The position numbers and the translations under genes are program-made. This document shows positions 792 to 39,292 of a stretch of DNA of 48,715 nt, in pieces (positions within the stretch are counted from its first letter, which is position 1; each line of letters opens with the position of its first letter). The stretch is from assembly GCA_023382535.1 (NCBI GenBank), contig JAHDWA010000067.1, positions 1 through 48,715 on the forward strand, read 5' to 3'. The stretch comes from Anaerolineae bacterium. GTDB lineage: Bacteria > Chloroflexota > Anaerolineae > 4572-78 > J111. Under the pieces are notes generated by a model. It worked only from the letters and a program-made list of their open reading frames with translations, was not told the DNA's origin and ran no database searches.

Positions 792-2105
792 TCAGCCTTG
801 CCGTGCCGCTCCACTCGACAGGGGGCAAGCGCTAATATTTACGCCTAGGCTGGGTAAGCAAAAACATGATGTGATTGTGACGGGGGTCTGTTTAGCTCGG
901 TTAACCGTGGGACGATATTTGGTCAAGATATAGAAGGCCAACAGGGCTGCTGGGATCAAGGCCAGGTAACTCAAGCTCATTGCTTGAGTTAGGCCAACCA
1001 GCTCCTGCAAGTGGCCAACCCCTATATAAAGCACGCCGGCCACCCCGGTGCTGAAACCCATCAGCATGCCCGAAGCCGCAGCCTGCGAGCGAGGCGCCAG
1101 GTCCTGGGCGCTAACGATCATCAGGGGTAGGCTGGCATTTTGCAGGCCGCCGGCCAACATCACCATCAGGAAAAAGAGCAGAGTACCCGGCTCAAAGTAA
1201 AAGATCGCCAGAAGTGGTAGCAGGGCCAGTAAAGTGGAACTCGTAATGAGCAGACGATGACTGAGACGATGGCTAAGTATCCCGGCCATAATTCCACCCA
1301 AAGCCGCCGACAGGGAGAAGGTGGCTAAGGTCCAACCGATGAGCGAATCGTCGTGAGCTAAACCATGGACTTGTACCAGCCATAAGGGTATGGCGCTGGT
1401 AAACGTTACAAAGGCAATGCTGCTCAAAATGCCAGTTAGAGACAGCAGGCCCACGGGTCCGACCAAGAGTTCTTTGTTCAACATGCTGGGTCGAATTCCC
1501 GGAGAGGTGATCTCCTGAGCCGGCACGATGAAAAACATTAACCCACCCACAAGGATGGCAGGTATCATGAGCCACGGGGTAAAGCTTGGTCCCAGGTTCG
1601 AGATGATCAAAAGGACAATGACCGGCCCCAAAGCAACGCCAATCGTTCCTCCGGCACTAAAGAGGCTGACTGCAAGTTCACCTTTCTTCCCACCGGCTGT
1701 CCGGGCAATACTGGCAATGGCCGGGTGCAGGGCGGCAGAACCGAGACCGCCGATCAGCAGCAGGCCAAAGAGGAGATAGACAGTAGGTACGATCCCGATC
1801 AGACTTAACAGTCCTGCGTTCAGGATAACCCCCAATGCGCCCACTTGACGGTGGCCAACGTGGTCGGCCAGCGCGCCAAACAAGGGTTGTGTCATCGCGG
1901 CGCTGAAGGCCAGGGTGGCCACAAGCATCGCCAGGCCGGTTTCGGTTAAGCCAAATTGATACTGGAGAGTCGGCAAGAGAGCTGAGAAGATATTGGTCAC
2001 CGCGTCACTAGCCAAATGAACTACAGCCAGAAAGGCGACCAGACTGCTACCCGTCAGTACGGTTGGTTGGTTTGAAATTTTGATTGCTTTACTCATTAGG
2101 CTCAT
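792..2105 (-). CDS. MFS transporter, fosmidomycin-resistance (Fsr)-like
   Basis: A twelve-helix major facilitator protein of about 437 residues, likely a drug or small-molecule exporter in the inner membrane. Visible marks are the loop 2-3 sequence GALADHVGHRQVGALG, followed by the LHPAIASIAR segment that in the Fsr subfamily reads FHPEGSR, and long hydrophobic helices throughout. ATG at 2105 is chosen over the upstream in-frame start because AGGAGG at 2112-2117 is ideally spaced. It follows the peroxiredoxin gene by about 70 bp on the same strand, so the two are probably cotranscribed from the promoter near 2780. The exported compound cannot be told from sequence. The MFS call is sure; the Fsr subgroup is probable. 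Confidence 0.85.
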   Translation of the reverse strand: MSLMSKAIKISNQPTVLTGSSLVAFLAVVHLASDAVTNIFSALLPTLQYQFGLTETGLAMLVATLAFSAAMTQPLFGALADHVGHRQVGALGVILNAGLLSLIGIVPTVYLLFGLLLIGGLGSAALHPAIASIARTAGGKKGELAVSLFSAGGTIGVALGPVIVLLIISNLGPSFTPWLMIPAILVGGLMFFIVPAQEITSPGIRPSMLNKELLVGPVGLLSLTGILSSIAFVTFTSAIPLWLVQVHGLAHDDSLIGWTLATFSLSAALGGIMAGILSHRLSHRLLITSSTLLALLPLLAIFYFEPGTLLFFLMVMLAGGLQNASLPLMIVSAQDLAPRSQAAASGMLMGFSTGVAGVLYIGVGHLQELVGLTQAMSLSYLALIPAALLAFYILTKYRPTVNRAKQTPVTITSCFCLPSLGVNISACPLSSGAARQG

Positions 2106-2982: not shown

Positions 2983-5127
2983 TTACTTTAGTCGTAAATC
3001 CAACCGCCGTAAGGTTTGAGCATTGATAGCCACGATGATGGTGCTCAGCGACATCAGCACCGCTCCGACCCAGGCCGGGAGCACGAACCCCAGCCCGGCC
3101 AGCACGCCCGCCGCCAGCGGCAGGGCAATAGCATTGTAGCCTACCGCCCAGCCCAGGTTCTCAACCATTTTGCGATAACTGGCCCGGCTCAATTGGATGA
3201 TCCGTCCGATGTCGCGTGGATCGTTGCGCACCAGCACAATCCCTGCCGACGCCCGGGCCACGTCCGTGCCCGCGCCAATGGCAATTCCCACATCGGCCTG
3301 GGCCAGGGCCGGGGCGTCGTTCACCCCATCGCCAACCATAGCCACCTTTTGGCCGCGCTGCTGCAAGGCTTTGACCTTCTCGGCCTTGTGCTCCGGCAGC
3401 ACCTGGGCAAAGGTGGTTTCAATGCCCAGCTCGCCGGCCACCCAGCGGGCCACGGGCTCGGAGTCGCCGGTCAGCATCGCTACTCCAATGCCCTGCTGCT
3501 TGAGCGCGGCTACTGCCTCGCGGCTTTCGGGGCGGATGACATCGGCCAGGGCAAAGGCGGCCAACACCTGGCCTCCCTCCAGCAGATAGACTACCGTTTG
3601 CCCGCGCTCGCCCCACTGCTGGGCTTGGTGCGCCAACGTCTCCGGCAGGCTCACGCCGGCATGTTCCAGCATGCGCGGCCCGCCGACCTGCAAGGTTCGT
3701 CCGTTCATCGTAGCCTGGACGCCGCGCCCCGGCAACGCCTGGAAGCCAGTGGCCGCCGGGACTTGGACGCCTCGCTCTTGAGCCGCTTCAACCAGGGCGC
3801 GGGCAATGATGTGCTCGCTGTCCCTTTCCACGGCGGCGACCAGGGCCAGGGCCTGGGCCTCGTCCATTCCCTCTGCCGTAGCGACCGCCACCAATCCTTG
3901 CTCGCCCTTGGTCAGGGTGCCGGTTTTGTCAAAGACTACCACATCCAGGTGGCGGGCCTGCTCCAGCGCCAGCCGGTCGCGGACCAGGATTCCGTTACGA
4001 GCCGAAAGCGTGGTGGAGATGGCGATGACCAGGGGAATGGCCAGCCCCAAGGCGTGGGGACAGGCGACGACCAGCACCGTCACCACCCGTTCCAAAGTGT
4101 AGGTGTCAAACCCTCGCACCAGTATCCAGCCGATCAGGGTTACCATCGCCACCCCGAGCGCCACAAAGGTCAGCCAGTAAGCGGCCCGATCGGCCAAATC
4201 CTGGGCCCGGCTGCGGCTGCTCTGGGCCTCGGCCACCAGGCGCATAATCCCGGCTAACATGGTTTGCTCGCCGGTGCGGGTGATCCGCACCCGCAACGAG
4301 CCGCTGCTGTTGACCGTCCCGGCGATCACCTCGCTGCCCGGCTGCTTGTGGACCGGGCGCGACTCGCCGGTGATCATGCTCTCGTTGACCTGGCTTTCGC
4401 CCTCTTCCACCTCTCCGTCGGCCGGAACCTGGGACCCTGGCCGGACAAGTACCAGATCGTTCAGGGTGAGGGCGCTGACCGGCACCTGCTCGATACGGTC
4501 CGCCACGATTCGTTCCGCCGTATCAGGCAGGAGCTTGGCCAGTTCATTCAAGGCGCTCTGGGCGCTGCCCACCGCCCGTATTTCCAGCCAGTGGCCCAGG
4601 AGCATAATGACGACCAGGGTAGCCATCTCCCAGTAAAACGACATTCCTGCTACCAGTCCCAGATCAATGGCCAGGCTGTAGCCGTAGGCCGTGCTGATAG
4701 CCATCGCCACCAGAGTCATCATTCCCGGCTGGCGATTACGAAGTTCATCCACCGCCCCTTTCAAAAAGGGCCAGCCGCCCCACCAGAAAATTACACTCGA
4801 CAGAAGCGGTGCGATCCAGGCCGAGCCGGGAAAGGCCGGCGGCTGAAAGCCCAACAAATGCTGGATCATCTCGCTGTAAATGAGGACCGGGATGGTCAGT
4901 ATCAGCGTGAGCCAGAAGCGGTCGCGGAACATTGCCTCACTGTGACCGGCGTGTTTGTCGTGGCCCTCGTGCCCGGCGTGAGCAGAGACCGAAGGGCCCT
5001 TGTGTGCCTGATGGTCGGCGCTGCGGTCGGCCTGGGTGTGGGCTTGAGTCGGGGCGTGGTCTCCATGAGACCCATGATGCCCCATGTGATCTCTGTGATC
5101 GTGTAACTGTCCTTGATGCGTTGTCAT
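2983..5127 (-). CDS. copB: P-type ATPase, P1B-3 CopB-like copper exporter
   Basis: A 714-residue heavy-metal P-type ATPase that should pump copper out of the cytoplasm. The first ~65 residues are a His-rich cytosolic tail in place of HMA domains, as in CopB. The intramembrane metal motif is CPH at residues 356-358, which defines the P1B-3 group. The actuator motif MITGES, phosphorylated Asp at residue 400 in DKTGTLT, TGDS, and GDGVNDAP are all present, so the enzyme looks active. ATG at 5127 follows a GGGGG purine stretch. It is transcribed alone, with a hairpin beyond its end at 2905-2936. Its promoter region shares two elements with that of the peroxiredoxin. A second P1B ATPase (36920-39292) with a different membrane motif lies elsewhere in the window. 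Confidence 0.92.
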   Translation of the reverse strand: MTTHQGQLHDHRDHMGHHGSHGDHAPTQAHTQADRSADHQAHKGPSVSAHAGHEGHDKHAGHSEAMFRDRFWLTLILTIPVLIYSEMIQHLLGFQPPAFPGSAWIAPLLSSVIFWWGGWPFLKGAVDELRNRQPGMMTLVAMAISTAYGYSLAIDLGLVAGMSFYWEMATLVVIMLLGHWLEIRAVGSAQSALNELAKLLPDTAERIVADRIEQVPVSALTLNDLVLVRPGSQVPADGEVEEGESQVNESMITGESRPVHKQPGSEVIAGTVNSSGSLRVRITRTGEQTMLAGIMRLVAEAQSSRSRAQDLADRAAYWLTFVALGVAMVTLIGWILVRGFDTYTLERVVTVLVVACPHALGLAIPLVIAISTTLSARNGILVRDRLALEQARHLDVVVFDKTGTLTKGEQGLVAVATAEGMDEAQALALVAAVERDSEHIIARALVEAAQERGVQVPAATGFQALPGRGVQATMNGRTLQVGGPRMLEHAGVSLPETLAHQAQQWGERGQTVVYLLEGGQVLAAFALADVIRPESREAVAALKQQGIGVAMLTGDSEPVARWVAGELGIETTFAQVLPEHKAEKVKALQQRGQKVAMVGDGVNDAPALAQADVGIAIGAGTDVARASAGIVLVRNDPRDIGRIIQLSRASYRKMVENLGWAVGYNAIALPLAAGVLAGLGFVLPAWVGAVLMSLSTIIVAINAQTLRRLDLRLK

Positions 5128-12644: not shown

Positions 12645-13130
12645 ATGGGGAGATCACTTTTTTTAACGATAGGGCTGTTGATGGCACTGCTGCTGGTGGC
12701 ATGTAGCTCGACTGCTTCTACCTCAACTGCGGCTCAACCAGAAAGCGTATCGCCGGAGATCACTGTTTACAAGTCCCCGACCTGAGGCTGCTGCGGTGAC
12801 TGGAGTGAGTATATCCAGGAAAACGGCTTTACTGTCAAGGCGGAAGACACCAACGACCTGGCGGTGGTAAAAGCGCGTTATCAGATCCCGGCTGAACTCC
12901 AGTCTTGCCATACGGCCATCGTTGATGGCTATGTCATAGAAGGACACGTGCCCGCGGCTGAAATTCGGCGGCTGATAGCCGAACGGCCTGACATTATTGG
13001 GCTGGCGGTAGCAGGGATGCCTGCCGGCTCGCCGGGAATGGAGGTGGCAGGAGCTGCCCCCGAACCTTTTGAGGTGATTGCCTTCGATAACTCGGGCAAA
13101 ACGGAAGTTTTTGCCAGTTACCCCAAGTAG
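12645..13130 (+). CDS. DUF411 metal-binding lipoprotein, predicted selenoprotein (Sec47)
   Basis: The full reading frame is 161 codons plus stop with one in-frame TGA at 12783-12785 (codon 47). Before it are a signal peptide with lipobox LLVAC (Cys20) and the strand ITVYKSPT; after it GCCGDWSEYIQENGF, then ARYQIPAELQSCHTAIVDG, YVIEGHVPAAEI and LAVAGMPAGSPGME, all hallmarks of DUF411. The family motif is SPTCGCCG, so TGA sits exactly on the first conserved Cys. DUF411 proteins are periplasmic and thought to bind copper. A 5-bp hairpin at 12800-12818 with a G-first loop starts 14 nt after the TGA, fitting a bacterial SECIS. The gene has its own promoter and AAAGGAG. A simple nonsense mutation is the alternative, but the position and two similar cases nearby argue for selenocysteine. 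Confidence 0.85.
12800..12818 (+). promoter_or_regulatory. Predicted bacterial SECIS hairpin of the DUF411 gene
   Basis: CTGGA, loop GTGAGTATA, TCCAG. The loop begins 19 nt after the TGA and its first base is G, as the bacterial SECIS model requires. Confidence 0.65.
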
Positions 13131-13216: not shown

Positions 13217-13242
13217 GCAGCTATAAATCGAAGAGATTCAAT

Positions 13243-13422
13243 AGAGGCGCCCGTTGCCCCGGATGGCACGGGCGGTAACGGCGAAGCCGGTGTAAGTCCG
13301 GCGCTATCCCGTAACTGTAAAAGTTAGATAATTAGAATCAGTAGCCGATAGTCAGAGGATAAACTTTCTGACTACTGACTACCGACTACTCTCCATCTGA
13401 CTAAGCCAGGTCGCCCGCCTCT
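13243..13422 (+). ncRNA. Cobalamin (B12) riboswitch
   Basis: The P1 stem is AGAGGCG (13243-13249) with CGCCTCT (13416-13422). Between lie the family signatures: GCCGGTGTAAGTCCGGCGCT, then ATCCCGTAACTGTAA, and near the 3' end AAGCCAGGTCGCC, the counterpart of the conserved AGxCAGGAxACC strand. B12 binding normally represses downstream expression. The peripheral arm at 13340-13390 is enlarged by a palindromic repeat also found at 35045-35085. A micro-ORF and an intrinsic terminator follow before cbtB, so control probably acts through termination. It is a natural regulator for a cobalt transport gene. Confidence 0.9.
13340..13390. repeat. Palindromic repeat inside the riboswitch arm
   Basis: AGTAGCCGATAGTCAG and CTGACTACCGACTACT pair over 16 positions with two mismatches. 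The element resembles the intergenic palindrome at 35045-35085 (AGTAGCCAGTAG ... CTACTGGCTACT). Confidence 0.55.
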
Positions 13423-13459
13423 GTTGGCTCTATACAACCTCGTGGAAGGGAGTAAGAGT

Positions 13460-13775: not shown

Positions 13776-14888
13776 ATGCTAGTTAAAAGAATAGCCAATC
13801 TTGTTTTGTTGATGGCCTTGTTTTGGGGGCCTTCGGCGCAAGCGCAGAGCGACCTATCGGTCATTTTGGAGGCAGCTCCCGCCGACAGCCAACCTGGACC
13901 CATTGGACCTGATAAAACTTTTGTCCACACTAGCCTGACTATTGTTGATGCCACCGGGCGGGCTGTGCCGAATGCCTTTCTCAAACTGCGCCTTGATGCT
14001 CCCGCCAGCAATCCTCTCCTCTCCACCGATTTCCCAGTGGTAGAAAGTACGACTCTGCTGCGTTACGAAGGCACACTACCCACTGGCCGTTTTGAGTTTG
14101 ACTACATTTATCCTATTCGCGGCCAGTACAATTTCCAGGTGGAGGCTGGGCGAGACGCGGCCACGCCTTCTTTTCACAATACACTCAACCTTGACTTGAG
14201 TGAGAACGTCAACGAGGTTATCAACCTCATTATTCTGGTGACAGGGTTACTGGCCTTGGGCATAGTCGCCGGTGTCGTTGTCGGCAATGGAGCGAGGGCA
14301 CAGCGGATGGCTACTATGGGCCTGGTTTTGATAGCTCTGGGGATTGGCCTCTTGAGTAGCCTGCCTTCAACGGTTCAGGCTCAACATGGTGAGCACGATG
14401 TCATGAGCGCCGAACCCTTCACCGAGAGCGCCACCAACAAGGACTTGACCTTAACCTATATGATGAACCCTGGCAGGGGTGAGGTTGGTAGGCTCAGTCA
14501 TCTCAACTTTGCGGCTACCGACAGCAGCGGTGCGCCGGTTCCTAACACCTCCTTTGCAGTCAAATTTTGGCATATCGAAGATAAAAAACAGGTCTTTGCC
14601 GCCAATCTGTACGCGCCCACCGGCCAGACCCAACTCGACTTCCAATTCTTCGATGGGGCCGAACACGAAGTCCAACTCCAAGCGAGCAGCGCCACCGGGA
14701 CGGTAGACCTGACCAAAGTCATAGCTGTTCAGCCTATTGATCCGCCGCTGCTGGTCAAAATCAAAACGACCCTCTACCTGGTATTAATTGTCTTTGGGGG
14801 CATTCTCGTCGGGCTGCGTTTCTCGTTTAATCGGAGCAAAAGTGGAATGGAACCTTCACCTCTAAACGCTCAACGTTCCACACTATGA
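13776..14888 (+). CDS. Exported two-domain membrane protein in the cobalt operon
   Basis: A 370-residue protein I do not recognise. It has a signal peptide ending AQAQS, a beta-rich extracytoplasmic domain (residues ~25-140), two transmembrane helices ([18 protein letters not shown] and a segment near [14 protein letters not shown]), a second beta-rich domain (~200-335), and a final helix [15 protein letters not shown]. Both soluble domains look like FixH/YtkA or macroglobulin-like sandwich folds ([34 protein letters not shown]). A His/Glu pair (QHGEHD) starts the second domain. It is translationally coupled to the ATPase by a 4-bp ATGA overlap. The operon position suggests an accessory role in cobalt handling. 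Confidence 0.7.
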
Positions 14889-16757: not shown

Positions 16758-17171
16758 TCACTTTAACTCCAAATTAAACTCCTGAACGACATCCAGCGGC
16801 GCTTTCTTCACTTGAACCGTCACTTTCCACTTGCCGCCGTGAGCGAACCCGGCGGTTGTGGCATACCGTCCAGCTCCCTGGGCGGTGGCTTTGCCGTTCA
16901 TAGTCATCCCCTTCATCTCAGTGTGATCGGCAAAAATATACACATCCGCATCAGGAATCGGCTGGCCCTGGACATCGTTGACTTGCACAACCAATTCGAC
17001 GTCGCCGCTTTGGGGAGGATCTGGGTTCGTTGTTAACGAAACCTGGGCCTCGGCGGTAGCCGGGGGTGACGGTGGAGCGCTCGCACCGCCGCAGGCAGCC
17101 AGAACGAGGGTCAAGCTGGCGAGTAGAGTCATCAGCAGTAAAAAGCAATAGGATCTACATTTTGAACGCAT
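16758..17171 (-). CDS. FixH/YtkA-like copper-associated lipoprotein
   Basis: A 137-residue lipoprotein. The signal peptide ends in the lipobox LVLAAC; a Pro/Ala linker follows and then one beta-sandwich domain with GQPIPDADVYIFADHTEMKGMTM and AGFAHGGKWKVTVQV. This is the YtkA/FixH pattern, in which Met and His residues on the surface loop (HTEMKGMTM) could bind copper. It begins 27 bp downstream of the multicopper oxidase stop on the same strand, so both are likely one transcript. An auxiliary role in periplasmic copper handling is inferred. Confidence 0.7.
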   Translation of the reverse strand: MRSKCRSYCFLLLMTLLASLTLVLAACGGASAPPSPPATAEAQVSLTTNPDPPQSGDVELVVQVNDVQGQPIPDADVYIFADHTEMKGMTMNGKATAQGAGRYATTAGFAHGGKWKVTVQVKKAPLDVVQEFNLELK

Positions 17172-17198: not shown

Positions 17199-18290
17199 TT
17201 AGGTACTGACGTTGACGACAAACATCAATCCGCCAGGTTCGACATTATCGTTTGTGGTGTGATGTAAGATGTGGCAATGAACCATCCATTGACCGGGTTC
17301 GGTGGCGATAAATTCCACATCGTAGCGTTCACCTGGCGCCACTGCAACCGTATCTTTGGTTAATTGGGCGGCCTCCGGCACAGGATGACCATCAGTCGCC
17401 ACAATTTTGAAGGGAACGCCGTGCAGGTGCATGGGATGCACAAATTGCCCGATATTGATGAAACGTAGTCGTACCCGCTGGCCTTTTTTGACGTTGAGGG
17501 TCTCCGTCGCGGGAAAGGCTTTTCCATTGATGGTAAAGAAGTTCGGTTCCATGCCTCCCATCGGCATGGCCGCAAAGGTCTCGCCATCAACCACCCGCCA
17601 CTCCGACAGCATTAGGGTCACATCCACATCAGGCTTAAGTCCGGCCTCTTCCTTTGGCTCGATAATAAAGGGGGCATACAAACCCACCCCAACCTGCACA
17701 TCCCCCTCAAAGTGGGAATGATACATAAACGTACCAGCCGGTTTGGCGGTGAACTCATAAGTGAAAGTTTCGCCGGGTTGGATGGGGTCCTGGGTCATAT
17801 CAGGCACGCCGTCCATCGCATTGGGCACTTCGATCCCATGCCAATGAATAGTAGTCGGGTCGGGCAGGTCGTTCTTAACCCGAATCCGGACTTTGTCTCC
17901 CTCGGTGACCCGGATCATCGGTCCTGGAACCGTGCCATTATAGGTCCAGGCAGTTACCGTTACATCATCCAGGATTTTCCACCGTACCGGTTTGGTGGTG
18001 ATTTCGAAAACTTTGACCTCGTCTTCAAGCCGAAATTCAAGGGGTTGTCCACCCTGATCCTGGGTGGCTGGTTGAACACCCTCGGCGCTGATTGGCTCCA
18101 TCATGTGAGCCATTCCCGCGTCGCTGGAGTCCATCGAATGTTCCATGCCGCCATTGGCGGGCATCATTCTAGCCGGGGTAGGGGTTGGGGTGGCCTCAAC
18201 GCTGGCCGACCCCGAAGTGGACGGGTCGTTCGCGCAGGCTGAGACTACCAGCATGGTGAATAAGACCAACATCATTAGAGCAGTTTTCAT
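17199..18290 (-). CDS. Two-domain multicopper oxidase lipoprotein
   Basis: A 363-residue periplasmic multicopper oxidase. The signal peptide ends in a lipobox (VVSAC); a Met/His-rich stretch (residues ~42-64, with GGMEHSMDSSDAGMAHMM) may collect copper. Domain 1 holds HWH 149-151 and HSH 191-193; domain 2 holds HPMHLH 285-290 and HCHILHH 338-344, so all four copper-binding motifs and the type 1 Cys are present. The length fits a two-domain laccase-type enzyme that must trimerise. It probably oxidises Cu(I) or another small reductant. It leads an operon with the YtkA-like lipoprotein, and its promoter has three 11-bp direct repeats shared with two other loci. Confidence 0.9.
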   Translation of the reverse strand: MKTALMMLVLFTMLVVSACANDPSTSGSASVEATPTPTPARMMPANGGMEHSMDSSDAGMAHMMEPISAEGVQPATQDQGGQPLEFRLEDEVKVFEITTKPVRWKILDDVTVTAWTYNGTVPGPMIRVTEGDKVRIRVKNDLPDPTTIHWHGIEVPNAMDGVPDMTQDPIQPGETFTYEFTAKPAGTFMYHSHFEGDVQVGVGLYAPFIIEPKEEAGLKPDVDVTLMLSEWRVVDGETFAAMPMGGMEPNFFTINGKAFPATETLNVKKGQRVRLRFINIGQFVHPMHLHGVPFKIVATDGHPVPEAAQLTKDTVAVAPGERYDVEFIATEPGQWMVHCHILHHTTNDNVEPGGLMFVVNVST

Positions 18291-18644: not shown

Positions 18645-19481
18645 CTACTCCCCTTTTGCCGGGGTGATGGTTGGAAAGGGCTGCTGTTGGGTCACCTGCC
18701 ACTGAAACAACCGGTTCTGCTCCGACCAGAGGCTTTTGAAGTAGGTTATCATCGCCCGAATTTCGGCATCGTTCAACTTGTCGCCGAAAGCGGGCATAGT
18801 CAGCGGACTTTCGGGCGGCTTGAGCAGATCGCGAAAACCATCACGGATTATTTCATAGAGCAGCCCATCGGCATGGTGCCAGGTGTGACCGGTGTCGTCG
18901 TGCGGCGGGGCAGGCATGTTGCCCTGGGCGTCGGGCTGCTTCCACTGAGGCTGACCTTCGGCCTGTTGACCGTGACATGCAGCACACTGTTCCAGGTAAA
19001 TTTGCCGTCCGCGAGCCACCTCATCGGCATCAAGGGTTGGCAGAGGGGGAATTACGGTAGCGGGAGTACCTGCTCCCTGCTCGCCAGGGACATGAGACAG
19101 AACTTGCTGTAAACCCTCGGCGATCTGTTCCGACGATTGAGGTCCAATGAAGCGTTTCACCTCCCGGCCTTGCCGGTCAACGATCAAAATAGTGGGGTGG
19201 CCTTGTACCTGATAGGCGCGCATAATTGCCGGCCCATCGCCTTCGTTAGCATTGATCCGTTGGAAGGCAATTTGACCGGCGTATTGGGTCTCCAGCCCAT
19301 CCACGATGGGCGTCATCCTCGCTCAAGATGGTCAGGTATCGGTATAAATGAAGACCAGTGTGGGCTGGCCCTGTTGCCCCAGCGTAGGGGTGCTGCCATC
19401 ACAACCGGCTAACCCAAGCACAATCAGCCCGAGTAAAATCAAGATAGTTAGCGGGTGTATTTCCTTAAATGTTAGCCGCAT
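18645..19481 (-). CDS. Thioredoxin-cytochrome c lipoprotein, predicted selenoprotein with UxxU
   Basis: The full frame is 278 codons with two in-frame TGAs, codons 50 and 53 (19332-19334 and 19323-19325). Residues 1-27 are a signal peptide with lipobox LAGC; then TLVFIYTDT-U-PS-U-ARMTPIVDGL, the thioredoxin strand and active-site helix with both Cys of CxxC as TGA. The fold continues with FQRINANEG and the cis-Pro in GHPTILIVD (Pro96). Residues ~150-260 form a class I cytochrome c with heme motif CAACH (166-170) and a Met ligand in TMPAFGD. A 7-bp hairpin (19295-19311) lies 11 nt after the second TGA. The start at 19481 is 18 bp past the BNR gene stop. Nothing else in the frame is disrupted. 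A diselenide redox centre wired to heme is inferred. Confidence 0.9.
19295..19311 (-). promoter_or_regulatory. Predicted bacterial SECIS hairpin of the UxxU gene
   Basis: On the minus strand GCCCATC, loop GTG, GATGGGC: a perfect 7-bp stem. The loop starts 18 nt after the second TGA and 27 nt after the first, with G in first position, within the range for bacterial SECIS elements. Confidence 0.75.
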
Positions 19482-19498: not shown

Positions 19499-19881
19499 TT
19501 ATTCAGCCGGTTGCCGGGTAGTCGCGCCATCTTGAGACCGCCAAACCGAATCGTCGGTTAAAACCGTAAACACTGTTTGTGGCGCAGCGGGATTAAGCAC
19601 GACAGCCAGTGGCTCCCCCGTTAGCCCTTCCTCAGCCGCTTGCCAGATCTGCCCGGCGTCGTCCGAGCGAAACAGGCCTGCTGGACCCGCTGCATAAACT
19701 CGTTTGGGGTTGACCGTATCTACGGCCACGGAGCGAATAAAGGGGTTGATGGGCAAACTGCCCATTGGGCGCCAGCCTCAGAATCAATCCTACTCAGGTA
19801 AGCGCCGCTCGGCGTAGCCGCATAGAGCCACCTGGTTTTCATACTGCCCGGCAGCGGCGAGTGGATGAGGATCTCCTTCAC
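19499..19881 (-). pseudogene. BNR/YCF48-type repeat protein with a frameshift
   Basis: Two minus-strand frames together make one protein. The first holds VKEILIHSP and WLYAATPSGAYLSRIDSE (from about 19881), the second PMGSLPINPFIRSVAVD, RVYAAGPAGLFRSDDAGQIW and SVWRSQDGATT, ending at 19499. The join near 19770 needs one extra base, so it is a single-base deletion or an assembly error. The repeats are the beta-propeller blades of sialidase-like BNR proteins (compare 43276). It lies directly upstream of the UxxU selenoprotein, 18 bp before its start, as if in one operon. Confidence 0.6.
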
Positions 19882-20084: not shown

Positions 20085-20516
20085 CTACATAGCAAGCGAC
20101 CGCACTGAACCTTGGGGAATCGCGCTCAGCAACTGATTGCACGCTGCTTCACAGCGGTGGCAAGCCTCAGTGCAAACACGACAGTGCTCGTGATGTTGAG
20201 CATGCCGCTTGCACTCAGCGCCACACACCTGACAGGCCAGGGCGCAGACTTGAAGCTGGCTACGTACCAGGGTCCAGTCAGGTTCGGTTTGGCGCGAGAG
20301 TAAACGCCCGGTGGCGCTGCAAACATCAGCGCAGTCCAGGTTCAGTCGAATACAACGAATAAGCATTTCGATATTCTGCTCACCAAGACAGGCATCAGCG
20401 CAAGCCGTACAGCTTTGAGCGCAGTCAAAACACTCCTGAATACAATTCATTAAGGCTTGCCTATCTACTTGACTCTGGCGAGGATGAGTTTGTAACATTT
20501 GTTGGATATGGTGCAT
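20085..20516 (-). CDS. Four-helix copper storage-like protein (DUF326/Csp)
   Basis: A 143-residue Cys-rich four-helix bundle. Cys residues are spaced along helices as CxxxCxxCxxxCxxC: CIQECFDCAQSCTACADAC, then CIRLNLDCADVC, CALACQVCGAECKRH and CRVCTEACHRCEAAC. This is the pattern of Csp-type copper storage proteins, in which thiolates line the bundle core and hold many Cu(I) ions. No signal peptide is seen, so a cytosolic form is likely. ATG at 20516 has an AGGAGG site upstream. It fits the copper theme of the region, and no Cys has been replaced by TGA. Confidence 0.85.
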   Translation of the reverse strand: MHHIQQMLQTHPRQSQVDRQALMNCIQECFDCAQSCTACADACLGEQNIEMLIRCIRLNLDCADVCSATGRLLSRQTEPDWTLVRSQLQVCALACQVCGAECKRHAQHHEHCRVCTEACHRCEAACNQLLSAIPQGSVRSLAM

Positions 20517-24958: not shown

Positions 24959-25789
24959 TCAGACAGTAGCCAGGATCAACAAGCCCATCAGAACTACACC
25001 ACCTCCGAGAACCAGTCGGACCCACTCTTTATGATGCAGGTTCCAGTGAGCCAGGCGGTTGAGCGTGGGCCGGGTCGAGGCCGCGAACAAGATCACTACC
25101 AGGGGCAGGATAAAGATGACATTGTACAGCACCAGATAACTGTAGCCGAGCAAGGCGGTCGGCTGCAACGCCAGCAGGCTCAGCACGGCCAGGTAGACCG
25201 CTCCGCTGCACGGCACGGTGCACAGCCCGATGAGAAAACCACCCACGACTAAAGCCGGTATCGTCGCCCGGCGCGCCGATTGCCGGGCAATGTCGGCCAC
25301 CTTACCCGGAGCCTGCAAGCGCCAACCCCACTCCGGCAGGAAGAAATCTTTTACCATCCATAGGCCAAACAGGATCGCCAACAGCGCTCCCACGCGAGCC
25401 GGGAGGTGCTGGCGGGTGAAAAAGTCCATGGACTGGAGGAGGCCGATTCCCAGGGCCAGGTAGGTCAGAAAGATAGCGGCGATGTAAATGGAGCCCATTC
25501 CCAAAATGCGCAGGCGGATGGTATTCACGCTGGTCGAGGCGGCTGGCCCCGCCTGCAAGGTCGCCAGCATGGCCGTTATGAATAACAGCAGCACGGTGAA
25601 GGCGCAGGGATTGATTCCGTCGACCAACCCGGCGACAATCACCGTGGGCAGGGTGATGGCCGGCAGGTAAACCTGCATGGCGACGTCGGGCGCATTGGGG
25701 TGCCACCAGCCGGTCAGGGCGATGGCGCCCAAGGCCAGCACGGTCAGCACCGAGAAAATAACGGTTCTCTGAACAAACGTGGTCGTCAT
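24959..25789 (-). CDS. ccdA: CcdA/DsbD-type thiol electron transporter
   Basis: A 276-residue membrane protein that moves reducing equivalents from cytosolic thioredoxin to extracytoplasmic thiols. The two redox cysteines are in VDGINPCAFTVLLLF and GLCTVPCSGAVYLAVL, and six to eight helices surround them. It lies 3 bp after the cupredoxin gene and 7 bp before the DUF2085 gene, forming one operon. CcdA would be a suitable electron donor for exported thiol proteins, including the UxxU Trx-cytochrome lipoprotein in this window. All its cysteines are encoded by TGC/TGT, so the thiol pathway itself does not use TGA here. Confidence 0.88.
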   Translation of the reverse strand: MTTTFVQRTVIFSVLTVLALGAIALTGWWHPNAPDVAMQVYLPAITLPTVIVAGLVDGINPCAFTVLLLFITAMLATLQAGPAASTSVNTIRLRILGMGSIYIAAIFLTYLALGIGLLQSMDFFTRQHLPARVGALLAILFGLWMVKDFFLPEWGWRLQAPGKVADIARQSARRATIPALVVGGFLIGLCTVPCSGAVYLAVLSLLALQPTALLGYSYLVLYNVIFILPLVVILFAASTRPTLNRLAHWNLHHKEWVRLVLGGGVVLMGLLILATV

Positions 25790-25792
25790 TGC

Positions 25793-26251
25793 TTAAGCCT
25801 CGACGACGAGTTTGCCCTGCATGGTTGGATTGGCCCGCCCTCCACAGCACATATCACAGTAAAAGGTGTAGACGCCGGGCTTGTCAGGGGTGAAGGTGGC
25901 TGAATTGCTGCCTAACGGAGGCGCAACGATACTTACCCCGAGTTCATCCACCGCCCATTGGTGCTGGCCGCCGCCGTCGGTATGGTGGGAATTGTCCAGA
26001 CTGGTCAGGCGGACGGTCACCGGCTGGCCTGCCTTGAGACGCATCTCCTGTTGACTAAACCCACCCATATCGGCAGTGAGGTCAATGATATTAGCCGTCG
26101 GGGTGGGCAGATTGGGCCAGAGGGCGGTAACGAGCAGATAACCGGCGACCCCTAGCACCAGCAGCACAATCAGGCCAAAGCCAAAGATGCGGATTCTTTG
26201 CGAGTGGGGTGGATTGGGTAGATGTTTTTTGGAGTGCTTGTTCTTTTTCAT
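25793..26251 (-). CDS. Membrane-anchored cupredoxin with YCDMCC site
   Basis: A 152-residue protein with a basic N-terminus, one transmembrane helix (FGFGLIVLLVLGVAGYLLV) and a cupredoxin domain: NIIDLTADMGGFSQQEM, VTVRLTSLDNSHHTDGG, then YTFYCDMCCGGRANPTMQG. The Cys-x2-Cys plus His and Met pattern resembles the CuA-type copper sites of cytochrome oxidase subunit II and nitrous oxide reductase, or a copper chaperone. ATG at 26251 is chosen because GGAG lies 8 nt upstream. It leads the CcdA-DUF2085 operon. Confidence 0.8.
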   Translation of the reverse strand: MKKNKHSKKHLPNPPHSQRIRIFGFGLIVLLVLGVAGYLLVTALWPNLPTPTANIIDLTADMGGFSQQEMRLKAGQPVTVRLTSLDNSHHTDGGGQHQWAVDELGVSIVAPPLGSNSATFTPDKPGVYTFYCDMCCGGRANPTMQGKLVVEA

Positions 26252-26281
26252 GCTCAATCTCCTGTCGTAGCACTTTTGTTT

Positions 26282-32095: not shown

Positions 32096-32578
32096 TTACG
32101 GTCCCCAATCGGATTTGGCAACCAGAACCATCTGGGAATTCTTGGGATCGTTGGTTCGCACGGTCACCTCAAAAAGGTGCGGACCATCCATCCCCTCGTG
32201 CATCATGTACTCCATAGAGAGTTCGGCTTCCTGCCCTGGCTTTATTGTCGTCGAACTGACGACAGCTTGGGGGGGTCAGCAACCCTCTACGACTTTTACC
32301 TGTGGCTGATCGAGGACGCGGAGTGTCGCGTTACCCTCGTTACGCAGCTTAAACGCGGTGCGCACCGTGGCCCCCAACTTTTGATAGCCTTCATCAACCT
32401 CTGTGCGGTCAACGACAAGTTTGGGCGTGCCCGTTTCAGGGGTGTTGGTGCCAATGATCAGGACGTAGCTTAATCCGGCGATAATTAAGAAAACGCCGGC
32501 AGCCACGGCCCAGAGCCACCACAAAGGCTTGGTAACGGGTTGAACCGTACTTCTTTTGTTTTTTCCTCTTTTGGACAA
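32096..32578 (-). CDS. DUF1573-like membrane protein, predicted selenoprotein (Sec101)
   Basis: The full frame is 160 codons with one in-frame TGA at 32276-32278 (codon 101). Residues ~19-43 are a transmembrane helix (WLWAVAAGVFLIIAGLSYV). The outer domain runs PKLVVDRTEVDEGYQKLG, FKLRNEGNATLRVL, VKVVEGC-U-PPQAVVSSTTI, then LSMEYMMHEGMDGPHLFEV and VRTNDP. Homologous DUF1573-type proteins normally have VEGCCPP, so the TGA falls on the second Cys of the pair. A perfect 7-bp hairpin (32246-32264) follows at 11 nt. The open frame without the TGA would stop at 100 residues and lose the second half of the domain. It is preceded by three 11-bp direct repeats (32691-32725), like the multicopper oxidase. 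Confidence 0.87.
32246..32264 (-). promoter_or_regulatory. Predicted bacterial SECIS hairpin of the DUF1573 gene
   Basis: On the minus strand TGTCGTC, loop AGTTC, GACGACA: a perfect 7-bp stem. The loop begins 18 nt after the TGA with G in second position; the same 11-nt gap and 7-bp stem occur in the UxxU gene. Confidence 0.75.
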
Positions 32579-36919: not shown

Positions 36920-39292
36920 CTACGCTTTTGCTTTGATCCCTTCCAGTTTAGTCCGCTTTAGCAGCAGGGCATTGATGGCTACGAGCAGCGACGAGCCAGA
37001 CATCGAAATGGCGGCGATCTCCGGGCGCAGGACCAGCCCAAAGGCTGGATAGAACAGCCCGGCAGCGATGGGAAAAGCAATGGCGTTATAGCCTGCGGCC
37101 CACCACAAGTTCTGGTGCATCTTGCGCAGGGTGGCCCGGCTGAGGGTGATTGCGCCAATGACGTCGAACGGGTCGGATTTCATCAGCACCACGTCGGCCG
37201 TTTCCATCGCTACGTCGGTACCCGCGCCGATGGCAATGCCGATGTCGGCCTGGGCCAGGGCCGGGGCATCGTTGATGCCGTCGCCGACCATGGCCACGAG
37301 TTTCCCTTGCCCTTGAAGTTCTTTCACCTTGTCGGCCTTTTGCCCAGGCAGCACTTCGGCAAAGACGGTCTGGATGCCCAATTCAGCAGCAATGCGCTCG
37401 GCAGTAGCGCGATTGTCGCCGGTGAGCATGGCGACCTGCACGCCCATCGCGGCCAACTTCTCCACGGTGAGTTTAGCATTGGGGCGCACAGCGTCGGCGA
37501 TAGCGATCAGCCCGGCAAATTTTCCATCGGCCGCGGCATAGACTACCGTGCGGCCTGCCCCTTCGAGCGAAGCAGCACGGTCGCCGTAGCCGTCGAAGGC
37601 GATATTGTTATCGCGCATCAGCTTACGATTGCCTACTAACAGAGTCTTGCCGGCCACAGCCGCTTTCATGCCATGACCGGGGATAGCTTCAAAGCCACTC
37701 GTCTCGGTCAGCGGCAAATTCTGTGACCTGGCCTTGTCCACAATAGCCTGGGCCAGGGGATGTTCGGACGACTGCTCGGCCGAGGCAACCAGACGTAACA
37801 GTTCATCCTGCGAGAGCGGGTTGCCCGCTGCTACGATCTCCACGACTTGCGGTTTGCCCTCAGTAAGGGTACCGGTCTTGTCAAAGATGATCGCCTGCAA
37901 TTTTGCGGCTTGTTCAAGCGCGGTGGCGTTTTTGTACAGGATGCCATTCTGCGCGCCCAGGCCGGTGCCAACCATCACTGCTGTCGGTGTAGCCAAGCCG
38001 AGCGCATCGGGGCAGGCGATGACCACGACGGTGATCGCCAACGTTAGCGCCCAGACGAATTTGTCCATCTCCGCCGGAATAGCCGAGCCACCGAAGAAAT
38101 ACCAACCGAAGAACGTCGCCAGGCCAAAAATGACGGCGGCGGCTACCAGCCACTGCGCCGCCCGGTCGGCCAGGCGCTGCGAAGGCGCTTTGGAGTTCTG
38201 GGCCATCTGCACGAGTTTGACAATTTGGGCTAGGGCGGTATCGGCGCCTACCTTGGTCGCCCGAAATTTGAACGTGCCGGTCTTGTTGATGGTCGCGCCT
38301 ACCACGTTTGAACCGACCGACTTCTTGACCGGCAGGCTTTCACCGGTAATCATGGACTCATCCACGCTCGACTCCCCCTCGATGACCTCCCCATCTACCG
38401 GGATTTTGTCGCCGGGGCGGATGAGGACAATATCATCGGCCACGACCTCTGAGGTTGGGATCTCGACCGTCTGCCCATTGCGGATGACGGTAGCCTGCGG
38501 CGGCGCGAGATTCATCAGGGCTTGAATGGCCTGTGATGCGCCTGAGCGGGCGCGCATTTCCATCCAGTGGCCAAATAGGACAAACGCCAGCAGCAGCGCT
38601 GCTGCCTCGTAGAATACTTCCCCCTCGAAGAAAAAGGTGGCCGCTACGCTGAAGATGTATCCGGCCAGCACCGATAGGGAGACCAGCACGGCCATATTCA
38701 AGATGCCGTTTTTCAAGCCGCGCCACGCGCCGACATAGAAGACCCAACCGCCGTAGAGAACGGCAGGCGTGGTGAGCAGGAACGACAGCACCTCGTTAGA
38801 CAGTCCAAAAGGCAGGGGCAGTTGAATGCCAAAGTAGTCCGTGAATAGGGGCGAGTACAGGAAAACCGGGATGGCCAGGATGAACGACACCAGGAAGCGG
38901 TTCCGCATATCGCGCACCATGTCTTCCATACTCATCCCGCCGCCGTGACCCATTTCGTGGGCCATCGCTGCCATTTCGCCGGCCTCGGCGTCTGCGGGCA
39001 TGGCGTGCCCGACGTGTTCGGCGTGGGCCGCATGGGCCATTGCCGCCGGTGGGTCTCCCGGCTTACTGACGTGTTTCGGCTGGCACTCGCCCGAACAACC
39101 GTAGCCACACTCGGCGACATGATGCTTAATTTCAGCCAGCGTGACCGCTTCGTCGTGATAGACAGTGGCCGTGCCGGTCATGAAGTTTGTCTCGACTTTG
39201 TGAATACCGGGATGTTGGCACAACTGCTTCTCGACCCCGGCCGGCGAGAGCACCGACTCGATCCCTTCCAAATTAATGGCCGTCGTTTTCAT
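36920..39292 (-). CDS. P1B-type ATPase with CPD membrane motif
   Basis: A 790-residue heavy-metal P-type ATPase. Residues 1-70 resemble an HMA domain ([19 protein letters not shown]) but the metal-binding CxxC is missing; a Cys-rich stretch ([15 protein letters not shown]) follows and then a His/Met/Ala-rich linker. The transport domain has MITGES, the phosphorylated Asp471 in DKTGTLT, TGDN and GDGINDAP. The intramembrane motif is CPD at 427-429 ([11 protein letters not shown]), not CPC, CPH or SPC, so the metal is uncertain; copper is possible. The promoter has TTGTAC-17-TAAGAT with a palindromic operator overlapping (39367-39387). This is the second exporter ATPase in the window. Confidence 0.9.

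Follow-up and report, generated by a model that had tools for sequence, protein, structure and literature searches.

How can a gene carry two stop codons within its reading frame and still encode an otherwise intact redox protein? The question is raised by a 48,715-nucleotide stretch of DNA from an Anaerolineae bacterium of the phylum Chloroflexota (assembly GCA_023382535.1, contig JAHDWA010000067.1, positions 1 to 48,715), which we analyzed and call the window. At positions 18645-19481 of its minus strand, a gene for a predicted exported thioredoxin fused to a cytochrome c contains two in-frame TGA codons, one on each Cys position of the thioredoxin CxxC motif. An earlier, sequence-only reading had taken both as selenocysteine (Sec, U). 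We confirm that the TGA pair on CxxC is real and not a product of chance, and conclude that the gene probably encodes a two-Sec thioredoxin-cytochrome c whose TGAs are recoded via one conserved hairpin, and which is predicted to be exported and likely to act in copper handling. Selenium content, the protein product, the direction of electron flow, and the copper function are all predictions. The earlier interpretation is supported overall: its view of the recoding stood, and it had missed the copper context and the wider family.

Two TGA Codons Replace the Thioredoxin CxxC

The internal stops of the reading frame are the two TGAs only (residues 50 and 53), and the frame terminates with TAG. 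Translation through both gives the protein analyzed here (P0001), MRLTFKE...LAGC...VFIYTDT-U-PS-U-ARMTPIVDGLE...GHPTILIV...CAACHG...GHTWHH...TMPAFG. Its features, in which SECIS stands for selenocysteine insertion sequence and Sec-type loci are those with UxxU or UxxC, are the following.

18645..19481, minus strand: thioredoxin (UxxU)-cytochrome c gene, 278 residues, two in-frame TGAs, TAG stop
19401..19481, minus strand: predicted lipoprotein signal peptide with lipobox LAGC (residues 24-27), judged by eye from the sequence
19107..19373, minus strand: thioredoxin domain (residues 37-125) with the cis-Pro in GHPT (residues 94-97), from Pfam and a fold match
19332..19334, minus strand: TGA 1, predicted Sec50, first Cys position of CxxC; TGA in 18 of 18 Sec-type loci
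19323..19325, minus strand: TGA 2, predicted Sec53, second Cys position; TGA in 15 of 18 Sec-type loci, TGC in 3 of 18
19295..19311, minus strand: predicted SECIS hairpin GCCCATC-GTG-GATGGGC, 7 bp, G first in the loop, 11 nt past TGA 2
18726..19022, minus strand: cytochrome c domain (residues 154-252), from Pfam
18972..18986, minus strand: CAACH heme c attachment site (residues 166-170), from the sequence and alignment A1

A pairwise match to the thioredoxin 3hyp_A places the TGA pair on both Cys residues of its CGPC, so that the frame and the alignment agree that the codons fall exactly on the CxxC motif, as had been claimed. The rest of the protein is intact, again as first read. P0001 scores 42.7 bits against the Pfam Thioredoxin model (PF00085, cut-off 23.5) and 47.4 bits against Cytochrom_C (PF00034, cut-off 21.3), and G94-P96 (the cis-Pro segment GHP), C166, C169, H170, and M229 are invariant across the 39 rows of alignment A1. 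The heme domain has the domain score, CxxCH motif, and Met of a class I cytochrome c, with Met229 the likely distal heme ligand. The thioredoxin domain lacks the CxxC of PF00085 and carries UxxU instead, which makes P0001 a thioredoxin variant. The best Foldseek match is thioredoxin m (1fb0; template-modeling score 0.83 by target), and nearly all of the best 50 of 1474 rows are thioredoxins or thioredoxin-chain entries, which are uninformative on the heme domain. An AlphaFold2 model, computed with C for U, is confident across most of both domains (mean predicted local distance difference test score, pLDDT, 85.1); because its predicted template-modeling score (pTM) is 0.62, the mutual placement of the two domains is insecure. 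An N-terminus of the lipoprotein-signal type is also found in nine other close loci. In the window TGA is a normal stop codon, since it ends 10 of the 34 main open reading frames (ORFs), a set that we chose.

A Conserved Hairpin Lies Downstream of the Second TGA

The perfect 7-bp hairpin that the first reading described, with G at loop position 1 and 11 nt after the second TGA, is seen at 19295-19311; its apical loop lies 18 nt past TGA 2 and 27 nt past TGA 1. The published bacterial SECIS (bSECIS) model, as given in the available text of PMC13188914, has a loop of 3-9 nt, a G in the first two loop positions, a stem of 4-16 bp, and a distance of 16-37 nt from the TGA. The window hairpin (loop GUG, 7-bp stem, 18/27 nt) falls inside these loop, stem, and spacing limits for both TGAs (PMC13188914, available text), which agrees with its proposed role as a bSECIS.

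The hairpin carries weight because it is conserved across loci. It forms at this position in 18 of 18 Sec-type loci, and in the ten closest all synonymous sites of its codons, CCC ATC GTG (G/A)AT GGG, are fixed (10/10); all 32 of the other conserved codons listed, the TGAs aside, vary among the same ten. No covariation occurs within these ten loci, and it is seen only once the eight diverged loci are added. Over all 18, with relatedness of the loci uncorrected, the six-pair stem is 93.5% paired, compared with at most 62% for a slid partner. Two-sided changes occur at two stem pairs, in four cells: A-U to G-C in L149, L154, and L169, and C-G to U-A in L171. In a control of 500 shuffles, none matched the observed pairing or covariation score. 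The mean hairpin energy is -9.7 kcal/mol in the 18 Sec-type loci (range -5.4 to -12.9) and -3.8 kcal/mol in 13 of the 21 Cys loci, the others being apparent near-duplicates (L156, L157, L165, L161, L162, L164, L166, and L170). The three UxxC relatives have TGA 1 only and keep the hairpin in an unchanged place, so it can presumably serve TGA 1; one SECIS serving both TGAs would be the simplest reading.

UxxU, UxxC, and CxxC Forms among Relatives

Two chance nonsense mutations on precisely these codons had been judged very unlikely, and the recurrence of the TGA pair bears this out: UxxU is present in 15 distinct DNA loci, namely the window and 14 relatives in 13 genomes. The relatives are L001 (G001), L002 (G002), L131 (G554), L132 (G553), L133 (G556), L134 (G557), L135 (G558), L136 and L140 (both G559), L149 (G488), L150 (G538), L151 (G391), L153 (G455), and L171 (G536). 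A phylum-wide search matched 89 of 400 genomes at E <= 1e-8, and 30 loci were typed, one of them a repeat of the L002 copy. The 29 distinct loci comprise 5 UxxU, 3 UxxC (L154, L160, and L169), and 21 CxxC forms, so that a search for homologues at this position yields all three types, which form a graded series running from Cys to a single and then a double Sec. The closest Cys form among the typed loci is L152 (CPFC), a lipoprotein-like thioredoxin; the other Cys forms resemble ordinary thioredoxins. Among 149 genomes of the phylum of G001, searched at E <= 1e-30, there was no match besides G001 itself. The UxxC relatives L160 (G287) and L169 (G232) have an apparent N-terminal membrane helix rather than a lipobox, with a hairpin in the matching position.

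Protein databases contain the family largely in shortened form. Searches returned 1046 proteins with P0001 (the best 120 were used), 22 with its thioredoxin part alone, and 54 with a stand-alone relative; the matches listed include 171 distinct proteins, of which 91 fit a simple pattern for the thioredoxin segment. The start Met lies two residues ahead of PIVxGxE, the first start after TGA 2, in 82 of these 91 listed proteins, which indicates that gene callers repeatedly truncated the family at one place. Among the remaining nine, P0123 and P0141 share that start and carry a variant motif, P0140, P0146, and P0155 start four residues on, P0033, P0034, and P0035 have later or out-of-frame starts, and P0065 is an apparent chance match to the pattern. 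None of the 91 listed proteins has a CxxC just ahead of the segment. A search of viral contigs gave one match, to the cytochrome only.

Selenocysteine Machinery in the Relatives' Genomes

The search for Sec genes covered the UxxU genomes G001, G002, G553, G554, G556, G557, G558, and G559. G001 has selA (513.6 bits), selB (322.3 bits) and selD (203.9 bits), each of the latter two cut by a contig end, and tRNA-Sec (68.7 bits). Its selD, selA, and selB lie on a single contig; at 7.4 Mb the bin is large, and some contigs could come from another organism. In G002, selA, selB, and tRNA-Sec (72.2 bits) are accompanied by a selD gene that contains an in-frame TGA. Across the order to which G002 belongs, selA scores above its cut-off in 22 of 25 genomes and tRNA-Sec above its gathering score in 23 of 25, where hits near 47-50 bits are possible tRNA-Ser look-alikes. 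The UxxU genomes G556, G557, and G559 have both selA and tRNA-Sec. Within the window, ARAGORN found no tRNA, and an Rfam scan found a cobalamin riboswitch only.

Predicted Copper Genes near Part of the Family

The gene order around stand-alone relatives points to copper handling as the likely role. All five thioredoxin-only loci in the order of G002 (L141-L145) share one order on one strand: a metal-sensing repressor (PF02583), an HMA protein of 68-83 residues, the thioredoxin-UxxU lipoprotein, and a P1B ATPase with HMA domains. Pfam covers four of the repressors (L142-L145), two of the HMA proteins (L142 and L144), and three of the ATPases (L141, L143, and L145). The L142 ATPase passes the copper-translocating model TIGR01511 (589 bits against 397), and the remaining members were assigned by eye. 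Of the named models, the copper sensor RicR fits the L142 and L143 repressors best, with scores below its cut-off. An HMA gene also lies immediately upstream in L002 and L132. A 5.1-kb region of G488 contains a metal-type P-type ATPase, the thioredoxin-UxxU gene, and, as a gene of its own, a GHTWHH cytochrome c, with other genes interspersed; this locus ties together the two parts that form a single protein in the window.

The window itself contains two P-type ATPases (2983-5127 and 36920-39292) and the following neighbors of the fused gene.

17199..18290, minus strand: multicopper oxidase, next main ORF downstream (Pfam; NCBIfam copper_res_A at 190 bits, below its cut-off of 479)
16758..17171, minus strand: YtkA/FixH-like protein with a lipoprotein-type N-terminus, after the oxidase (Pfam)
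20085..20516, minus strand: Cys-rich protein like Csp1 copper storage proteins, upstream (NCBIfam TIGR04401 at 40.9 bits, below its cut-off of 100; no Pfam match)
24959..25789, minus strand: DsbD_TM/CcdA-like membrane protein, possible electron donor (Pfam PF02683 at 24.5 bits, below its cut-off of 27.1; no NCBIfam match)

An 88-residue ORF just upstream of the gene (19499-19765, minus strand) is similar to part of an F510_1955-type glycosylhydrolase (35.4 bits against a cut-off of 175) and is perhaps a remnant.

Further Predicted Selenoproteins

A second predicted selenoprotein of the window is a DUF411 protein with a lipoprotein-type N-terminus (12645-13130, plus strand; TGA at 12783-12785). 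It matches Pfam PF04214 at 95.6 bits (cut-off 27) and has UGCC where the solved DUF411 protein 6wis has CGCC. We take 6wis to be the copper protein CopG, and DUF411 is linked to copper. UGCC forms of DUF411 also occur at L001 542-1051, directly upstream of the L001 thioredoxin-cytochrome c gene, and in L178 (G002) and L179 (G566), the only matches at E <= 1e-15 among the 25 genomes of the order. Table 1 of the selenoprotein review PMC13188914 has no DUF411 entry, and a search of the open-license PubMed Central (PMC) literature found nothing joining DUF411 with selenoprotein, or DUF411 with CopG and copper. The cobalamin riboswitch (13228-13436, plus strand, 53.2 bits) lies between the DUF411 gene and a gene at 13776-14888.

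The third is a DUF1573-like protein (32096-32578, minus strand; PF07610, 31.7 bits, cut-off 26.1) with GCU-PP and its TGA at 32276-32278. A perfect TGTCGTC-AGTTC-GACGACA hairpin lies past this TGA, and the protein has a weak match to the NCBIfam OS_HP2 (seleno)protein model (31.3 bits against 100). Adjoining the G002 thioredoxin-cytochrome c gene, L002 8766-9899 (plus strand) encodes a DsbA-like protein with UPYC that is followed by a DUF3105 domain. It lies close to the Rcas_1661 (seleno)lipoprotein family, scoring 160.9 bits against a cut-off of 190.

Weighing the Evidence and Proposed Mechanism

On our preferred reading, both TGAs would be decoded as selenocysteine with the aid of the one conserved hairpin, and the protein would be anchored as a lipoprotein outside the membrane. 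Sec50 and Sec53 may form a diselenol/diselenide pair, as predicted from the UxxU spacing alone, and this pair could react with copper-stressed thiols or Cu(I) on that side of the membrane. In the fused form, heme c would accept electrons singly and pass them to the respiratory chain, with reducing power possibly coming from the DsbD/CcdA-like protein. By general chemistry, a diselenide should be a stronger reductant than a class I heme c, which would favor electron flow from Se to heme; that a working diselenide is electrically coupled to the heme is something we infer.

Several observations weigh against this reading. Five 7-bp/3-nt hairpins with G first are found in the window on both strands, and the local fold at the hairpin has z = -1.5; we therefore rejected the hairpin alone as proof. 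The shuffle control discriminates poorly on the number of covarying pairs, which 39 of 500 shuffles reached, and on pair types, which 260 of 500 reached; the stem loses its innermost pair in 5 of 18 loci and two other pairs in one locus each; and 4 of the 13 Cys forms still reach -7 kcal/mol or lower. The L001 copy has an extra in-frame TAA (1590-1592, plus strand) in the linker before the heme motif, and is either affected by an assembly error or decaying. G553 has selA with tRNA-Sec hits only below the cut-off, G554 has tRNA-Sec without selA, and G558 has a selA fragment and a borderline 47.3-bit RNA hit, gaps that perhaps stem from incomplete assemblies. Within the order of G002, co-occurrence of Sec genes adds little, since nearly all of its genomes have selA (22/25). 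The cytochrome-only genome G003, tried as a negative control, was not clean, with selB and selD hits above cut-off. The repressor/HMA/ATPase operon was not seen around the diverged UxxU loci L150, L153, L171, and L151 (the last via the 10-kb L182) in stretches read by eye, some of them short, nor beside L131, whose contig ends within the gene. The fused forms of the window, L001, and L002 also lie outside that operon, the small ORFs there being only partly scanned. We rejected a family-wide copper context, since the four diverged loci lack it in the stretches read.

These four loci lend themselves to another view, in which the selenoprotein is as described but serves general exofacial thiol chemistry or cytochrome/oxidase maturation in the manner of TlpA/ResA, the copper neighbors being incidental. 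Genes at 24959-26257 for the CcdA/DsbD-like protein and for a cupredoxin weakly similar to NosZ/CoxB fit such a role, but the placement of all five thioredoxin-only loci of one order inside the metal-repressor/HMA/P1B-ATPase operon does not, and all 12 NCBIfam matches of P0001 fall short of their cut-offs. We consider this role unlikely. It also seems rather improbable that the two Sec residues are mainly a Cu(I) site, which would take Cu(I) exported by the ATPase while the heme accepts an electron, converting Cu(I) to Cu(II). The operon with a copper-type ATPase and HMA protein, the multicopper oxidase adjoining in the window, and the UGCC DUF411 protein, a second predicted Sec protein of a copper-linked kind, all suit this idea; the stand-alone thioredoxin-UxxU relatives, however, have no heme, and the cis-Pro that marks thiol/disulfide exchange is kept.

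If there were no read-through, the product would be a 223-residue ORF from the ATG after TGA 2, and the upstream part would be a decayed remnant. The 82 of 91 listed relatives annotated from that Met and the ATG at that codon in 11 of 15 UxxU loci are what one would expect, yet the start is not universal (L001 has GTG, L151 and L153 have neither ATG nor GTG, and L171 has ATG one codon on). Upstream of it, all 10 close loci keep the signal-type N-terminus and first thioredoxin strand, the short product would lack an export signal despite its c-type heme site, and the hairpin codons are frozen at synonymous sites, all of which makes this explanation very improbable. That this organism reads TGA as some other amino acid, or that the stops are sequencing errors, has next to nothing to recommend it, as we found no evidence for either, TGA ends 10 of the 34 main ORFs counted, and a matching TGA pair is present in assemblies of 13 other genomes.

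Returning to the two-Sec, copper-linked thioredoxin-cytochrome c, we offer one more specific proposal tentatively, as possible rather than probable: a single SECIS would decode two UGAs nine bases apart, and the protein would provide a diselenide-to-heme c electron outlet of copper detoxification within a Sec-based copper-defense set of Chloroflexota. The proposed set, in which Cys is replaced by Sec, comprises thioredoxin UxxU, DUF411 UGCC, DUF1573-like CU, and DsbA-like UPYC, all of them exported. If the reading is correct, here is a thioredoxin family that naturally uses two selenocysteines, and it would take in dozens of database clusters whose current annotation is that of truncated cytochromes or thioredoxin fragments. 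The family would be a natural test case for one bacterial SECIS recoding two UGAs and possibly a covalently linked Se-Se/heme c unit, and it would give reason to seek selenium in bacterial copper defense.

Comparison with Known Systems

The selenoprotein inventory of 2026 counts 119 families or subfamilies; its Table 1 gives thioredoxin (PF00085) solely as UxxC and UxxU solely for Prx-like, NF041115, and FmdB proteins, contains no thioredoxin-cytochrome c entry, and a different Sec motif defines a new subfamily (PMC13188914). In the available text of the deep-Sep paper, none of six terms looked for occurs (PMC12013277). NCBIfam has no model above its cut-off for P0001 (12 matches below cut-off) or for the stand-alone form of L142, and P0001 likewise has no match above cut-off to the named UxxU families (NF041115 and Prx-like PF00578). 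A search of the open-license PMC literature found nothing on selenoprotein, Chloroflexi, thioredoxin, and cytochrome c together.

As a predicted exofacial thioredoxin-like protein tied to copper, the family resembles the Scs (suppressor of copper sensitivity) and TlpA thioredoxins. Those proteins have CxxC and are not known to carry a heme domain. A selenoprotein family with a diselenide bond, SelL, was reportedly described by Shchedrina in 2007. SelL, Prx-like 2, and the Prx-like oxidoreductases (PF00578 or distant relatives) have the UxxU redox motif in common with our protein, but SelL and the Prx-like proteins are peroxiredoxin-like rather than thioredoxins, and P0001 is below the Redoxin cut-off with no AhpC-TSA match. 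The occurrence of UxxU in Prx-like 2 is given in the available text of PMC2398784. The NF041115 metal-binding (seleno)protein shares two Sec residues as UxxU and a metal context; it is probably of the HMA type, as its model matches the HMA part of the L142 ATPase, and it has no match to P0001. The Sec-containing thioredoxin (PF00085, UxxC) shares with our protein the thioredoxin fold and Sec at the first Cys position (PMC13188914, available text). That protein has one Sec (PMC13188914), whereas the family described here has UxxU, an N-terminal lipoprotein-type signal, a copper-operon context in part of its members, and, in the window form, a cytochrome c domain.
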